From: a virus
Length of the DNA stretch: 25,554 nucleotides
Direction: 5' to 3' (one strand)
IMG/VR virus record: IMGVR_UViG_3300025674_000347
Location: 1-25,554 of that record
In this document: positions 6,919 to 24,637 of the stretch, piece by piece
How positions within the stretch are numbered: position 1 is the stretch's first letter
Layout of the letters: each line of letters opens with the position of its first letter
Notes under the pieces: model-generated
The model's database searches: none
Told to the model about the DNA's origin: nothing
The model's input: the letters and a program-made list of their open reading frames with translations, nothing else
Translations under genes and position numbers: made by a program

Positions 6919-7229
6919 GTGCGCGCGAGAAAGCTGCCGGGACGCGGTCAGAGATCAAGGTCCGCGACCTGCTGCCGAGTGAATGGAGCGCTGTGCGCGT
7001 CGATCGCCGAGCGGGTCAGCTCGGTGCCGAGACCAGCCACGATCTTGAGGCAACGATCGCCGGTCGAACGGTCGCGATCGAGGTCAAGCGGCGGCGCGGC
7101 GGCGACAAGCAGCTCCGAGCATGGATGCCGCCGGCGGGCATCGTTGTGACGGACGAGCCGCGCGCTGAGCCGGTCGTGCACATGCCTATTTCGACGTTCA
7201 TAGAGCTTGCGGGGGGCGGAAATGACTGA
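6915..7229 (+). CDS. Holliday-junction-resolvase-like PD-(D/E)XK protein
   Basis: A 104-residue protein with the compact layout of Hjc/RecU-type resolvases. The N-terminal helix KAAGTRSEIKVRDLL carries Glu13, then come VRVDRRAGQLGAETSHDLEA with Asp43 and VAIEVKRR with Glu56-x-Lys58. These match the expected E, D and ExK metal-binding residues. A hydrophobic strand GIVVTDE and a C-terminal helix follow. Such enzymes cut four-way junctions formed during replication and recombination. It overlaps both neighbours by a few bases (ATGA at 6915; the initiator ATG at 7222 lies inside its end). Confidence 0.8.
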   Translation: MSAREKAAGTRSEIKVRDLLPSEWSAVRVDRRAGQLGAETSHDLEATIAGRTVAIEVKRRRGGDKQLRAWMPPAGIVVTDEPRAEPVVHMPISTFIELAGGGND

Positions 7230-8244
7230 GGGCACGAGCGAGATCGTGCGCGCGATCCGCGATGACCGAGAGCTGAGCCTGACCCCGGTCGAGCAGCTGG
7301 TGCTGATCTATATCGCGTCGCGACTGCCGAACGCCTATCCGAGCCAGCAGACGCTCGCCGATGAGATCGGCGTGGACGCAAGGACGATCCGGCGTGCTAT
7401 TCGGCGGCTGATCCAGGTCGGTGTTTTGACCGCGCGACCGATGGTGAGCGGCGGCGTCAATGTGTATCAGATACACCTCGATGGCGAGGTGACCCCAGGA
7501 CACCAGTGTCCTACCCCCCCGGACACCCATGTCCTACCCCCCAGGACACCCATGTCCTACCCCCCAGGACACCAGTGTCCTCCTAAGACCCCCTTTAAGA
7601 CCCCAACTAAGACCAAAACTAAGACCAAAGAACTCTCGTCGTTTCACGACGATATTGAGACTGCTTTCGATGCTTGGAACACGATGGCCGAGCGAGCCGG
7701 TCTCCCGACCGTGCAGCTGCGCAGCGACGCTCGCAAGAAAACGCTCTCAAAACGACTTGGAGACGCCGGAGGCCTAGAGGGCTGGCTGGCCGCTCTCGAC
7801 AAGGTAGAGCGCTCGCCATTCCTGCGCGGCGAGCGCGGGTCATGGAAGGCAAGCTTTGAATTTGTCTCAAAGGCCGCGAATTTCGCGAAGATTATGGAGG
7901 GAAATTATGACGACGACAAACGTGGTCCCAATGCGGGACGCAAGCCAACTAACAGCCCGGCAATGGGATCGGCAATGCGAGCTTACCTTGCTGTCATGGC
8001 CAGGCCTGACGATGGAAGTCCAGAGCCGGACGGGCCCGGATGGCCAGATGGATCTCGGCAGCTTGAAAGTTACGATCGGGGCGGAAGCGGATCTAGCGGC
8101 GCTGCGCGAGGTGGTCGAGCAAGCCTGCCTGCCGGCAAGCAGAGAGGCGATCGTGATGGCGGTGACCAAGCTCGCGCTGATCACGGCGCACTCGGAGAAA
8201 TGGGACAAGTACAAGTTGTCGGTCTACGCCGAGGTGCTGGCTGA
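7222..8244 (+). CDS. replication initiator (winged helix, lambda O-like layout)
   Basis: The 340-residue protein has an N-terminal winged HTH (residues 15-75: SLTPVEQLVLIYIASRLP, YPSQQTLADEIGVDARTIRR, AIRRLIQVGVL) like phage replication initiators. A low-complexity linker of Pro/Thr/Lys (about 90-135) is encoded by the iteron DNA. A second domain ends in SPFLRGERGSWKASFEFV and FAKIMEGNYD, a recurrent end motif of phage replication proteins. It should bind the iterons in its own gene and recruit the loader. ATG 7222 has a G-rich ribosome site; an in-frame TTG at 7207 is less likely. After about residue 230 the frame continues 338 nt over the next gene, so the tail may be dispensable or a frameshift may be involved. 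Confidence 0.8.
   Translation: MTEGTSEIVRAIRDDRELSLTPVEQLVLIYIASRLPNAYPSQQTLADEIGVDARTIRRAIRRLIQVGVLTARPMVSGGVNVYQIHLDGEVTPGHQCPTPPDTHVLPPRTPMSYPPGHQCPPKTPFKTPTKTKTKTKELSSFHDDIETAFDAWNTMAERAGLPTVQLRSDARKKTLSKRLGDAGGLEGWLAALDKVERSPFLRGERGSWKASFEFVSKAANFAKIMEGNYDDDKRGPNAGRKPTNSPAMGSAMRAYLAVMARPDDGSPEPDGPGWPDGSRQLESYDRGGSGSSGAARGGRASLPAGKQRGDRDGGDQARADHGALGEMGQVQVVGLRRGAG
7493..7626. other. predicted replication origin: iterons plus A-rich repeats
   Basis: Four iterons repeat with an exact 23-bp period: GGACACCAGTGTCC (7498-7511), GGACACCCATGTCC (7521-7534 and 7544-7557) and GGACACCAGTGTCC (7567-7580), separated by C-runs. The outer two are perfect palindromes. Directly after, TAAGACC occurs four times with an exact 12-bp period (7584, 7596, 7608, 7620) in lower-GC, A-rich DNA. 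An array of palindromic iterons followed by an easily melted block inside the initiator gene is the arrangement of the lambda origin in gene O. Function is inferred. Confidence 0.75.
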
Positions 8245-8422
8245 ATATCCAGGCGACGCCGTCCTAGAAACGCTGCGGAACTGGATAAGGCGAGGCGAGA
8301 AATGGATGCCGACCGTGCCAGATCTGATCGACAGCATCAGGATCAAGGCTCGTAAGCGGCTCGCCGTGCGCGAGGCGGTGGAGCGCGAGACCGAGCGGCG
8401 CGTGCTGAGGGAGATGGGCTGA
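7907..8422 (+). CDS. probable helicase-loader / replication P-like protein
   Basis: A 171-residue, mostly helical protein. The segment from about residue 60 (ADLAALREVVEQACLPAS, MAVTKLALITAHSEKWDKYK, VYAEVLAEYPGDAVLETLRN) and then GEKWMPTVPDLIDSI has the style of phage proteins with the YPxDxxxxAxxxW...KWxPTxxEL pattern, often annotated as P-like helicase loaders. The C-terminus is a charged helix. ATG 7907 is preceded by GGAGGGAA. It begins inside the initiator gene, giving a 338-nt overlap in another frame. Its position right after the initiator supports a loader role. Confidence 0.65.
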   Translation: MTTTNVVPMRDASQLTARQWDRQCELTLLSWPGLTMEVQSRTGPDGQMDLGSLKVTIGAEADLAALREVVEQACLPASREAIVMAVTKLALITAHSEKWDKYKLSVYAEVLAEYPGDAVLETLRNWIRRGEKWMPTVPDLIDSIRIKARKRLAVREAVERETERRVLREMG

Positions 8423-8619
8423 TGGCGAAGAAAAGCACAACAACTGTTGACCTGGAGGCGCTCGCGAAATTGCTTCGCGACCTTGAGCAGCCGTGTCCGG
8501 CGTGCCGATGGCAGGACTGTGACTGGACGGTGCAGTCCACCGATGCAGACCTGATGCGCGCCGATTACCGGGACCGTGCTGCGCGCGTCCTCGACTTTTT
8601 GGAGCTGGACCATGCGTGA
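8422..8619 (+). CDS. 65-residue hypothetical protein with CPAC motif
   Basis: Starts at ATG 8422, overlapping the previous TGA (TGATG). The N-terminus is polar, then comes LLRDLEQPCPACRWQDCDWT, with Cys-x-x-Cys and a further Cys that could bind a metal, and a helical end VLDFLELDHA. No family recognised. It is embedded in the replication block with overlaps on both sides, so it is probably co-translated with its neighbours. Confidence 0.65.
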   Translation: MAKKSTTTVDLEALAKLLRDLEQPCPACRWQDCDWTVQSTDADLMRADYRDRAARVLDFLELDHA

Positions 8620-9130
8620 CCCGATCGTCCAGCAGCTGATCGATCAGCACCTCCAGCGCGCTGAGGAAGGCCGCCGGCGTTTCGGCGGCACGATGGATCA
8701 GAACACGATGCCGCCGATCCAGCTGATTAAAGAGGCGATAGAGGAAGCGATGGACCTCTGTGTGTATTTGCAGGCAGCGGTCGTCAAGCTGGAGGCCGCT
8801 GATCGGGCAAAGGCCTGGAAGCCGCCGGCGGATCTGGAGCGGCTGATCGGTGTCGTCTCTGACTACTATCAGGTTTCGGAGGCGTTGCTGCGCGGTTACA
8901 GCAGGAGCGCTGATATAGCGCTGCCTCGACACGTCGCGATCCATCTCGGCAGGACGCGGCTCGGCTTGACCTACGAGGTTCTGGGGGCGGCGTTCAAGCG
9001 CGATCGCACGTCCGTCATGCACGCGTGTCGGCGGATCGAGGACCGTTTGCTTTGGCAGGAGGAGCGAGGGCAAACCGATCTGGCGGAGGACATCGAGGCG
9101 ATCTCGGACCAATTGGAATGGCGCTGGTGA
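8612..9130 (+). CDS. MazG-like / DnaA domain IV fusion protein
   Basis: A 172-residue protein; ATG 8612 has GGAG seven bases upstream. Residues 75-148 match the DNA-binding domain IV of DnaA: VVSDYYQVSEALLRGYS, ALPRHVAIHLGRTRLGLTYE, then FKRDRTSVMHACRRIEDRL, close to the DnaA signature (R replaces the usual H in RDHTTV). There is no AAA+ domain. Residues 10-60 (RAEEGRRRFGGTMDQN, then LIKEAIEEAMDLCVYLQ) resemble the helical MazG-like/NTP-pyrophosphohydrolase fold with its E-x-x-E-x-x-x-D pattern. It may bind DnaA-box-like DNA, act in origin control, or compete with host DnaA. Domain IV is firm; the N-terminal call is tentative. Confidence 0.8.
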   Translation: MRDPIVQQLIDQHLQRAEEGRRRFGGTMDQNTMPPIQLIKEAIEEAMDLCVYLQAAVVKLEAADRAKAWKPPADLERLIGVVSDYYQVSEALLRGYSRSADIALPRHVAIHLGRTRLGLTYEVLGAAFKRDRTSVMHACRRIEDRLLWQEERGQTDLAEDIEAISDQLEWRW

Positions 9131-11472: not shown

Positions 11473-11750
11473 TGGCAGGGAAGTCGGCAAAGCCGATCGC
11501 CAGGACGACGAAAGGCAAAGGCCGTCACTATCTGCCAGCCAGCCAGGGCGCGGGCATGACTGCCGCTGGCCGGCGAGCGTACAACGCGAAAAACAAGGCC
11601 AACCTCAAGCCGCCGGTGACCGGCAAGAAGCCGTCGAAAGCTGACGCGGCGCGGCGCAAGTCATTTTGCGCGCGGATGGGTGGCGTTGTGAAAAACGCAA
11701 AAGGGCCGGCGACGAGGGCGCGGGCGTCGATGAGAAGGTGGAAGTGCTGA
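11472..11750 (+). CDS. DUF6321-like small basic phage protein
   Basis: A 92-residue Lys/Arg-rich protein with the recognisable run YLPASQGAGMTAAGRRAYNA, then NLKPPVTGKKPS, RRKSFCARMGGV and a terminal ALRRWxC-like end (RASMRRWKC). I know this pattern from small proteins near the packaging and head genes of many marine and environmental phages (DUF6321-type). Function is unestablished; the high charge suggests DNA or capsid association. It overlaps both neighbours by single-codon junctions. Confidence 0.8.
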   Translation: MAGKSAKPIARTTKGKGRHYLPASQGAGMTAAGRRAYNAKNKANLKPPVTGKKPSKADAARRKSFCARMGGVVKNAKGPATRARASMRRWKC

Positions 11751-21245: not shown

Positions 21246-21863
21246 ATGGCCATCTCGACATACGCAGAATTGAAGACCGCCGTCGCGGAGTGGGGGAACC
21301 GCACTGATCTGACGACGCAGATCCCCGACTTTATCGCGCTTGCCGAGGAGCGGATCAACGCGAAGTTGCGTGTTCGCCAGATGGTCGCGCGCGCCACAAC
21401 GGACGCCGCCGAGTATCTGGATCTGCCTGATGACTGGATCGAGGCTCGCGAGGTCAAGCTGACCAACAGCAAGACGACCGTGCTCGACTATTACAGCCCG
21501 ATCGCGCTCGACAAGCAGTTTCCCTACGGCGGCGCTGGCCAGCCGAGCGGGTTCACGATCGTTGGCTCGCAGTTGCGCCTGATGCCGGCCCCGAGCGGGT
21601 CGATGACGGTCGAGATCGGCTACTACCAGCAGGTGCCGGCTTTGTCGGACAGCCAAACGCAAAACGCGGTGCTGACCGACTTCCCGCGCGTCTACCTCTA
21701 CGGCTCGCTGGTCGAGATGCAGAACTATTTGATGGACGCGAAGACGTTGCAGCGTTTCGAGGCTCTGTTCGACGAGGCCGTTCGAGTGGCCAACACCGCG
21801 AATAAGTCATCGACGCATGCCGGCGGCAGCCTGCGCGTGACGCCTGGAGGAAATGTCGTATGA
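21246..21863 (+). CDS. head-tail adaptor (P22 gp4-like)
   Basis: A 205-residue protein from ATG 21246. The N-terminal helices STYAELKTAVAEWGNRTDLT and IPDFIALAEERINAKLRVRQ, strands with TTDAAEYLDLPDDWIEAREV, then FTIVGSQLRLMPAPSG, VEIGYYQQVPALSD and a final helix RVYLYGSLVEMQNYLMDAKT match the adaptor/tail accessory proteins of podoviruses. It should sit beneath the portal and link it to the tail hub. This supports a short-tailed virion together with the portal type. Confidence 0.85.
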   Translation: MAISTYAELKTAVAEWGNRTDLTTQIPDFIALAEERINAKLRVRQMVARATTDAAEYLDLPDDWIEAREVKLTNSKTTVLDYYSPIALDKQFPYGGAGQPSGFTIVGSQLRLMPAPSGSMTVEIGYYQQVPALSDSQTQNAVLTDFPRVYLYGSLVEMQNYLMDAKTLQRFEALFDEAVRVANTANKSSTHAGGSLRVTPGGNVV

Positions 21864-24637
21864 CCACCTGGACAAACATTTCCGGCGGGAGCGCCATCAG
21901 CGAGTCCTTGGCTGATCAAGCGGCGACCAGCGCAACGGACGCGAGCAATAGCGCCACCTCGGCCTCCACCAGCGCGACTGCGGCGGAAGCGGCCAAGACT
22001 GGCGCTCAAGCGTCTGAAACGGCCAGCGCGGCCAGTGAGACCGCTGCGGCGGCTTCAGAGGCCGCTGCGGCCTCGTCGGAAACGGCGGCGGCGGCGAGTG
22101 AGGCGGCGGCGTCGTCCAGTGAGACGGCGGCGGCAAGCTCTGCCACTAGTGCAGGCACCTCGGCCACTAACGCAGCCACCTCCGCGAGCAATGCCAGTAC
22201 CTCGGCTGCTAATGCGGCGACCTCGGAAAGCAACGCAGCCACATCTGAAAGCAATGCTTCCACTTCAGCCACTAATGCGGCGACCTCGGCGAGCGGCGCG
22301 GCTTCCAGTGCCACTGCGGCGGCTTCCAGTGCCACTGCTGCGGCGGCGAGCGAAACCGCTGCGGCGGCGAGCGAGACTGCTGCGGCGGCGAGTGAGACTG
22401 CTGCGGCCTCGTCGGAAACGGCGGCGGCTGCAAGCGAGAGCGCGGCTGCGGCCAGCGAGACTGCGGCGGCGGGCTCCGCCACCAGCGCCAGCTCCTCCGC
22501 CACTAGCGCCAGCACGTCAGCGTCAGGTGCCGCGACATCCGCGACGAACGCTGCCACCTCGGAGAGCAACGCCGCCACCTCGGAAAGCAACGCCTCTACC
22601 TCGGCAAGCAGCGCCGCCACCAGCGCGACGGCAGCGGCGGGGTCAGCCACATCGGCTTCAAATTCGGCTAGTAGCGCAGCCGCCGACCTAGCGACTTTCC
22701 AGGGCCAGTATCACGGCGCGTCAGCGACCGCTCCGACCACTGGCCTGGACACGGGGGATCTCTATTTCGACACCGTCGCGAACGCGATGAAGGTATACAA
22801 CGGCTCCTCCTGGGTCGCTGCATATATCTCATCGGCTGGCATGCTGGCAGCAGCCAACAATTTGTCAGATGTCAGCTCAACCTCTGCCTCTAGGACCAAC
22901 CTCGGCCTCGGCACGATAGCGACCCAAGCGGCCAATTCGGTGGCGATCACGGGCGGGTCGATCTCGGGCATCACTGATCTCGCGGTGGCTGACGGCGGCA
23001 CGGGCGCTTCCACGGCTTCGGCGGCACGCACAAACCTGGGGCTGGTCATTGGCACGGACGTGCAGGCCTACGACGCTGGGCTAGCCGACATTGCTGGCTT
23101 GGCTGTTACTGACGGCAATGTGATCGTCGGCAACGGCAGCAATTGGGTGGCCGAAAGCGGGGCGACGGCGCGGACATCGCTTGGCCTGGGCACGATGGCA
23201 ACACAGGCGGCGACCGGCGTGGACATCGACGGCGGCACCATTGACGGAGCCACCATCGGCGGCACAAGCGCGGGCGCGGTGACGGCGACGACGCTGACGG
23301 CGACGGACGCCTCCGTCATCAGCGCATCAAGCTCAAGCGACGCGCTCCGTATCACACAAACGGGCGCGGGCAATGCGCTAAAAGTTGAGGACAGCACAAA
23401 CCCTGACAGTACGCCGTTTGTGGTTAATGCGAGCGGCAACGTCGGTATTGGTACTTCGTCACCTACGCACATGCTCACAGTGGGTGAGGATGGCAGCAAC
23501 AACCCCGGTCAAATCTCTCTTGGAAGAGGCGGCTTGGAAGATGCAAAAATTTTCTTCACGCGAGCTGGAAACAACGACGCCGAGATAACTTATAATTCTG
23601 ATGAAGATTTATATATCAAAAATAACTTTGCCGCTGGTGATGTGGTGTACAGCAACAACCTTGGTGAACATATTTTTAAATATGGCAGTGCTGGTGCGGC
23701 TGAAGCCATGCGCATCGATAGCAGCGGCAACGTGGGCATTGGTACTTCGTCACCCGCCCTTCCGCTTCACATATCTTCAGCCACACCTGCTATACGTCTC
23801 ACTGATACTGACGATAATAGTGATGCTCAGGTGAGTGCCGCTGCGGGTGGACTGCTTGTTCTTGATGCCGACATTGGCAATGAAGTCGCTGGTACTGCCA
23901 TCCTTTTCAGAGTTGATGGCGGCAGTGAAAAAATGCGTATCGACAGCAGCGGAAATGTCGGTATTGGTACAGCTTCTCCTGATGCAAAGCTCGGTGTATA
24001 TTCCGGTTCTCTCGGCACAACGGATGGAGACCAATTAGAACTAGCAAGGTTTATCTCAGCGGCCAGTAATGGTAGTTATTTAAGAGTTTTCACAGAACGA
24101 GATGGTGATGGGACGAATTGGACTACCGCATTTACTCGTATTCAGCAACGTGTTGACACAACAGATCAAGGTTACATTCAATTTAATGGTGCTGATAATC
24201 TGTATGGAATAAGTATTGGTAATAATAACACTGAATACATGCGTATTGAAAATGGTGGCAACGTCGGCATCGGCACGTCATCCCCCGCCGCCGCGTTAGA
24301 CGTATCCGGCACCGCCCGCGCCACGCAGGGTATGCCAATCATCACTGAGGCTGGCACCGCCAAGACCCTCGCTTTGACCGACAACGGCGGTTACGTCCGC
24401 ACGACATCAGGGTCCGCTGTCACGATCACGGTGCCCCTCAACTCGTCTGTCGCGTTCCCGACTGGCGCGGAGATCGTTGTCTTTCAGGACGGCGCTGGGC
24501 TTGTGACATTTGCGGCCACGGGCGGCGTGACGATCAAGTCAAAGGACAGCAATTTGTCGCTCGGCGGGCAGTATTCCGCCGCCACGCTAAAAAAGGTGGC
24601 AACAGACACCTGGGATCTGATCGGGGATCTCGCTTAA
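21860..24637 (+). CDS. mosaic tail fibre / receptor-binding protein
   Basis: A 925-residue protein. Residues 10-280 are an Ala/Ser/Thr repeat (TSATNAATSESNAATSES and similar), likely a trimeric rod. Residues 295-330 contain GDLYFDTVANAMKVYNGSSW, a fibre link module. The middle carries repeats of RTNLGLGTIATQAA. At about 523, 622, 694 and 797 the motif GNVGIGTSSP recurs (TASP once), a module I know from fibres of marine phages. The end is ATDTWDLIGDLA. From about 23500 to 24260 the DNA is clearly AT-richer than its flanks, indicating recombination. It starts 4 nt before the adaptor stop, so is translationally coupled. Confidence 0.88.
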   Translation: MTTWTNISGGSAISESLADQAATSATDASNSATSASTSATAAEAAKTGAQASETASAASETAAAASEAAAASSETAAAASEAAASSSETAAASSATSAGTSATNAATSASNASTSAANAATSESNAATSESNASTSATNAATSASGAASSATAAASSATAAAASETAAAASETAAAASETAAASSETAAAASESAAAASETAAAGSATSASSSATSASTSASGAATSATNAATSESNAATSESNASTSASSAATSATAAAGSATSASNSASSAAADLATFQGQYHGASATAPTTGLDTGDLYFDTVANAMKVYNGSSWVAAYISSAGMLAAANNLSDVSSTSASRTNLGLGTIATQAANSVAITGGSISGITDLAVADGGTGASTASAARTNLGLVIGTDVQAYDAGLADIAGLAVTDGNVIVGNGSNWVAESGATARTSLGLGTMATQAATGVDIDGGTIDGATIGGTSAGAVTATTLTATDASVISASSSSDALRITQTGAGNALKVEDSTNPDSTPFVVNASGNVGIGTSSPTHMLTVGEDGSNNPGQISLGRGGLEDAKIFFTRAGNNDAEITYNSDEDLYIKNNFAAGDVVYSNNLGEHIFKYGSAGAAEAMRIDSSGNVGIGTSSPALPLHISSATPAIRLTDTDDNSDAQVSAAAGGLLVLDADIGNEVAGTAILFRVDGGSEKMRIDSSGNVGIGTASPDAKLGVYSGSLGTTDGDQLELARFISAASNGSYLRVFTERDGDGTNWTTAFTRIQQRVDTTDQGYIQFNGADNLYGISIGNNNTEYMRIENGGNVGIGTSSPAAALDVSGTARATQGMPIITEAGTAKTLALTDNGGYVRTTSGSAVTITVPLNSSVAFPTGAEIVVFQDGAGLVTFAATGGVTIKSKDSNLSLGGQYSAATLKKVATDTWDLIGDLA

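Follow-up and report, generated by a model that had tools for sequence, protein, structure and literature searches.

Replication origins located within the initiator gene are already known from several phages. In lambda, four inverted-repeat iterons, spaced 20, 24 and 23 bp, lie in gene O and are followed, also inside gene O, by a T-poor, A-rich tract; two iterons plus the AT-rich region are reported to form the minimal unwinding unit, and the O protein to bind this region in single-stranded form (PMC7466680). The origin of P22 is annotated within the initiator gene 18 (32840-32984), and it contains dyad iterons followed by CAAAAGACAATA repeats in an A-rich tract. A similar order is found in phage 80alpha, where the origin annotated in the initiator gene gp20 carries dyads AACCGTTAACGGT followed by ACTAATAAT repeats at a 15-bp pitch. 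DUE repeats also occur in other replicons (PMC5043065), and at Bacillus subtilis oriC the DnaD Recognition Element and the DnaA-trios provide a short-period repeat next to initiator sites that is read in single-stranded form by an initiation protein (PMC10201434).

The sequence analyzed here (the window) is an IMG/VR virus record of 25,554 bases from a temperate phage, encoding an integrase, SSB, a YqaJ/RecE-type exonuclease, an S24 repressor, a RusA-like resolvase, an initiator, a helicase-loader-like protein and virion proteins (the integrase and virion genes were identified by reading their translations). No DNA-level match to the window was found among named phages, two scans of bacterial genome contigs for relatives gave candidate stretches only, none of them confirmed, and an Rfam search of the window returned nothing. 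At 21860-24637 the window encodes a tail-fibre-like protein, the N-terminal third of which carries a very long Ala/Ser/Thr repeat (SNAATSESNA...).

The initiator gene (7222-8244, + strand) belongs to the O-like replication initiation family phrog_345 (E 1.6e-20). Its product begins with a winged helix of the HTH_36 type (PF13730, E 1.3e-10; approximately codons 20-70, 7279-7434, + strand), the proposed reader of the iterons, with helices at 22-34, 42-49 and 53-65 in the structure model and DARTIRRAI as the recognition helix. It continues with a linker (codons 72-140) that is modelled with very low confidence and is probably disordered, and with a helical C-terminal domain (codons 145-232, 7654-7917, + strand; pLDDT ~90), homologous to that of P22 gp18 and proposed to be the helicase-recruiting part. 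A fold search with the initiator model gave nothing at E <= 0.001, the weak matches including winged-helix regulators and the DnaD N-terminal domain, and no solved structure was found with the C-terminal profile. The conserved domains stop near 7917, and the tail of the initiator from 7907 shares 338 nt (7907-8244), in a different frame, with the adjoining helicase-loader-like gene (7907-8422, + strand), assigned from its match to the phrog_2289 helicase loader family (E 1.8e-5) and from its substitution pattern. In some pairs of relatives this overlap is better conserved than the sequence around it, and in others loader third positions have changed in excess; the loader frame therefore appears genuine, and the tail of the initiator may likewise be translated. 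Further downstream, the product of 8612-9127 carries at its C-terminal end a domain resembling DnaA domain IV (PF08299, E 1.7e-17). This protein might regulate host DnaA or the origin, near which no strict DnaA box is present. Two other types of replication system were considered and rejected: a DnaA/oriC-type origin, as the window holds no DnaA-box cluster and a single strict box at 11687, and an iteron-plasmid Rep of the RepC type, with scores of 17.6 bits for RP-C (cut-off 24.4) and 13 for RepABC_RepC (cut-off 150).

The initial annotation had placed a replication origin inside this gene, built from four palindromic iterons and four TAAGACC repeats situated between the winged-helix and C-terminal parts. 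Both periods proved to be exact: the dyads, GGACACNNRTGTCC, occur every 23 bp at 7498, 7521, 7544 and 7567, the TAAGACC words occur every 12 bp at 7584, 7596, 7608 and 7620, and all of them lie inside the linker DNA. In the 25.5-kb record, GGACACNNRTGTCC is present four times, each time in the initiator linker. Iterons 1 (7498-7511) and 4 (7567-7580), both GGACACCAGTGTCC, are perfect dyads with 6-bp arms around CA, and iterons 2 (7521-7534) and 3 (7544-7557), both GGACACCCATGTCC, have one inner mismatch; no strand is assigned to them. The symmetric layout that had been read from these two classes (1 equal to 4, 2 equal to 3) exists in the window, but not in the relatives L005, L007 and L008, where copy 3 departs from a centre common to copies 1, 2 and 4.

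The dyads begin approximately 275 bp into the gene. Because 23 is not divisible by three, successive copies fall into three different frames (codon phases 0, 2, 1 and 0), near-identical DNA giving the peptides GHQCP, DTHV, TPMS and GHQCP, and the repeat is therefore selected as DNA. When codons were resampled from the phage's own genes with the protein held constant, a maximum of two dyad copies was obtained (37 of 20,000 trials) and four were never reached; the period-23 score of the linker is 48, against a maximum of 20 among 3,000 resamplings. The GGACAC-N2-GTGTCC dyads are under DNA-level selection within a protein-coding linker.

Three bases past the last dyad starts a series of four 12-bp repeats, TAAGACCNNNNN (7584-7631, + strand), the coding strand of which is T-poor and which, from comparison with other initiators, is proposed to be an unwinding and strand-capture element. 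With 44% A and 12% T at 7583-7630, in a gene of 61% GC, the tract is A-rich as first described, but at 56% A+T it is not strongly AT-rich; by inspection, the TnnT motif is found on its bottom strand. Three TAAGACC copies were obtained in 8 of 20,000 resampling trials, and four never. All four copies share one frame (phase 2), encoding KTP/KTK, and alone they cannot separate DNA from protein selection and could be a protein repeat, so the case for a DNA role is made by the comparison with other phages. It could thus be argued that the whole Pro/Thr/Lys linker grew by slippage as a protein-level repeat with no DNA function, all the more so as dipeptide linkers are common (for example PEPEPE in many other proteins). 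The mutually out-of-frame dyads, the use of one hexamer in different frames across initiators and the skewed Pro and Thr codons of dipeptide arrays (see below) speak against this explanation, which we consider very improbable.

Comparison of related phages supports an origin. In relatives L005-L008 (protein identity 84-92%), both the dyads and their 23-bp spacing are preserved, the centres of the dyads varying slightly. Two other contigs, L009 and L010, match the window in their flanks (~86-89% identical, ~80-98% in sliding windows) about as well as L005-L008 do, and by BLAST they align to 7220 and again from 7628, with nothing between; windowed identity is ~40-60% through most of the intervening segment. 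This exchanged cassette (7221-7627, + strand) spans exactly from the start codon to the end of the repeats and comprises the winged helix, the iterons and the 12-bp repeats, and the C-terminal domain is retained. In its place L009 and L010 carry a different winged helix (MarR_2/HTH_36), four GTCGTC...GACGAC dyads of the TGTCGTC-N3-GNCGACA type with a 22-bp period, and four 12-bp repeats of the TAAGATACAAGA type. The earlier expectation that iteron spacing would be kept among relatives while the sequence changes is borne out, wholly different dyads being spaced 22 instead of 23 bp. As far as can be judged from the two closely related contigs in which the swap is seen, the domain predicted to read DNA was replaced as one unit together with its putative targets and the 12-bp tract, as would be expected of a protein and the sites that it reads.

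The same association emerged from the dyads alone. Scanning 2.9 million viral contigs for GGACACNNNTGTCC-N9-GGACACNNNTGTCC (two dyads at 23-bp spacing), with genes ignored, we found 25 stretches, against ~0.01 expected by chance if the collection holds, as estimated, roughly 7e10 bases. Four are relatives of the window, and the remaining 21 fall into approximately 12 groups (grouped by eye), eight of which have an HTH_36 domain (that of L345 scoring under Pfam's cut-off); the dyads are within the HTH_36 open reading frame in seven of these eight groups and ~100 bp downstream in the other (L351). For the groups of L343, L344, L353 and L362, no winged helix was detected by Pfam or by eye. The C-terminal parts in the HTH_36 groups look unrelated, and recognition helices of the set resemble DARTIRRAI (SERQVRRAL, STRQIQRIT, SDRQVRRCI, TDRSVRRAI, DVRTVRRHI, TVRTVKRSI, TVRTVRRAV and SVRQVRRIL), with R54 and R58 nearly invariant across the set and different in L009, which combines other dyads with the helix GRQAVNATI. 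As HTH_36 domains often carry such helices, this likeness is only suggestive and not a proven code. A scan of viral contigs with the L009 dyad pattern returned its own group only. The GGACAC dyad pair is, on these comparisons, a marker of winged-helix genes in phages that appear unrelated. Near the GGACAC dyads of L361 (5339-5430), L363 and L346 we also noted AGAACCGTTAGT or AGAACCGTCA-like repeats with an AGAACC core and a pitch of ~12-15 bp.

These two comparisons bear on the question of which protein reads the dyads. Another DNA-binding protein of the phage might do so, for instance the repressor or the DnaA C-terminal-domain protein (8612-9127), since the phage does encode a protein resembling DnaA domain IV; this is highly unlikely in our opinion, given that the strict DnaA box is absent near the origin and that the dyads track the winged helix both when swapped and when searched independently. 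If the winged helix is the reader, its sites could nevertheless be operators through which the initiator regulates transcription via its own gene, with the origin elsewhere. Palindromic sites of winged-helix proteins are typical operators and autoregulation by initiators is common, but here the sites are situated well inside the gene and not at a promoter, a second repeat tract comes after them, and the P22, 80alpha and lambda origins are annotated at the corresponding place; we regard an operator function without an origin as unlikely. Operator and origin functions could coexist, the iterons also serving autoregulation. In contrast to these alternatives, it is very likely that the dyads and the tract together form an origin for theta-type replication within the initiator gene. 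This interpretation, already put forward in the initial annotation, is favored by the DNA-level repeats, the phrog_345 membership and the helicase loader next door, as well as the SSB, YqaJ/RecE-type exonuclease and RusA genes in the neighbourhood, by the exchange of the winged helix along with the repeats and the recovery of winged-helix genes from repeats alone, and by the in-gene origins of P22 and 80alpha, with iterons and then a repeat tract.

As for the tract itself, initiator homologues were collected by the C-terminal domain alone, giving 66 loci with many unrelated N-terminal domains, and many of them lack a strong palindromic repeat in a strict dyad test. The best period-6/12 run of each locus falls in the 330-nt linker in 40 of the 66 loci (3.8 expected by length), with AGAACC, AGATAC, AGAGAC, GGGACA and the 12-bp TAAGACC and TAAGATAC forms as recurring words. 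An unbiased scan of viral contigs for (AGANMC)x4 identified at least 51 distinct open reading frames of the AGANAC type, the commonest PHROG families among those listed being replication initiation, primosomal and DnaD-like loader, and nine of ten sampled AGATAC genes matched an initiator, primosomal or DnaD-like loader family (E <= 1e-6). In the reversed-word control, one of 31 open reading frames among the matches listed hit a DnaD-like family, and 18 pure AGATAC arrays compare with no pure CATAGA arrays, likewise among the matches listed; AGAGAC and AGACAC were dropped from this control, which is invalid for them because reversal merely rotates the repeat. The control has an array class of its own, GACCHA, outside initiator genes, so that period-6 or T-poor hexamer arrays as such are not origin-specific, and AGANCC arrays (PEPEPE) are common in structural and other proteins too, leaving only AGANAC informative by itself. 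Note also that (GACCHA)n-like arrays whose fifth base is C, A or T are found in the viral contigs L292, L295, L296, L307, L308 and L313 and the relatives L360 and L365, and that the window contains a degenerate, apparently intergenic (GACCHA)n at 2252-2420, with ~14 clean units and then decayed ones.

Different initiators translate one word in different frames: AGAGAC gives ET or RD (L217, L228), and AGATACA gives DT or KIQ. Dipeptide arrays use CCA for 39 of 44 Pro codons (110/398 elsewhere in the same genes) and ACG for 0 of 48 Thr codons (112/368 elsewhere), the counts being inflated by shared ancestry and slippage. Recurring 7-mers directly upstream of the arrays reach ~4x (direct) and ~3x (inverted) the codon-shuffled level, and ~1.6x and ~1.5x downstream; the upstream excess indicates the order iterons, then array. 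Named examples include Pseudomonas phage phi297 (GTGACA...GTCAC dyads, GGGACA x5), Aeromonas phage pAEv1818 and Rac YdaU of Escherichia coli K-12. Within ydaU of the Rac prophage (L333:2620-3477), TGTTCAAACA-type repeats are followed by AAAGATACAGATAAAGATC, which makes this a candidate site of oriJ, the Rac origin.

We give an even chance to the proposal that the tract after the iterons represents a widespread, so far undescribed origin module, in which a strand-asymmetric tandem array between iterons and C-terminal domain, often AGANAC (with AGAACC, GGGACA and 12-bp forms as variants) and present in initiators with unrelated N-terminal domains, would act as a single-strand register for directional helicase loading. 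By analogy, it would be the phage counterpart of the DnaA-trios or of the DnaD recognition element. In the open-access papers searched, we found no description of hexamer arrays. If the proposal is true, TDTDTD, TETETE, PEPEPE and KTKTKT linkers of initiators are shadows of origin DNA, origins could be located by sequence in many unannotated phages, and short oligonucleotides would allow a direct test of how phage initiators choose a strand for helicase loading.

A four-step initiation mechanism can be envisaged. The winged helix would bind the four GGACAC-N2-GTGTCC dyads, probably as one dimer each, for which the support is strong, and the dimers would lie on one face of the DNA, as 23 bp come close to two turns of the helix. 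The assembled complex would then strain the T-poor tract (7584-7631), which would open. In the weakest step, the tract repeat may set the register in which the initiator, perhaps through its C-terminal domain, captures a single strand, leaving the other strand for the helicase; this role is proposed by analogy with lambda, the DUE repeats of other replicons and the DnaD recognition element. Finally, as suggested by family membership, the C-terminal domain and the loader product (7907-8422) would recruit the host replicative helicase. Among these steps, direct comparative support is seen only for the predicted action of the winged helix on the dyads.

An origin call made from sequence only is here backed by the swap of reader and targets and by the repeat-only recovery of winged-helix genes. 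Together, these comparisons supply a set of sequences from which an HTH_36 iteron recognition code could be worked out, and with which one can ask whether phages swap origin cassettes to evade interference with their replication. What most deserves further study is the cassette swap, along with the general hexamer array.

How does this origin compare with the systems described above? Its layout matches those of lambda, P22 and 80alpha, yet the lambda-like arrangement claimed earlier does not extend to the C-terminal domain of the initiator, which is of the P22 gp18 type (hhalign probability 96.3, E 1.6e-9) and has no detectable homology to lambda O by hhalign (probability 0.1). Lambda also differs by its 18-bp iterons of other sequence and by the lack of a clean 6/12-bp tandem array. 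Of the characterised systems, P22 gene 18/ori is the nearest by homology of the C-terminal domain, although the P22 winged helix and iteron sequence are unlike those of the window, and in P22 a DnaB-like helicase gene comes after gene 18, whereas a loader-like gene follows the initiator here. 80alpha is a phage of Firmicutes, far more AT-rich and with different initiator domains. The DnaD Recognition Element and the DnaA-trios offer a model for a possible role of the hexamer arrays; they are chromosomal, and by inspection the TnnT motif is absent from pure (AGATAC)n arrays. The window origin very probably belongs to the already known in-gene type represented by lambda and P22.
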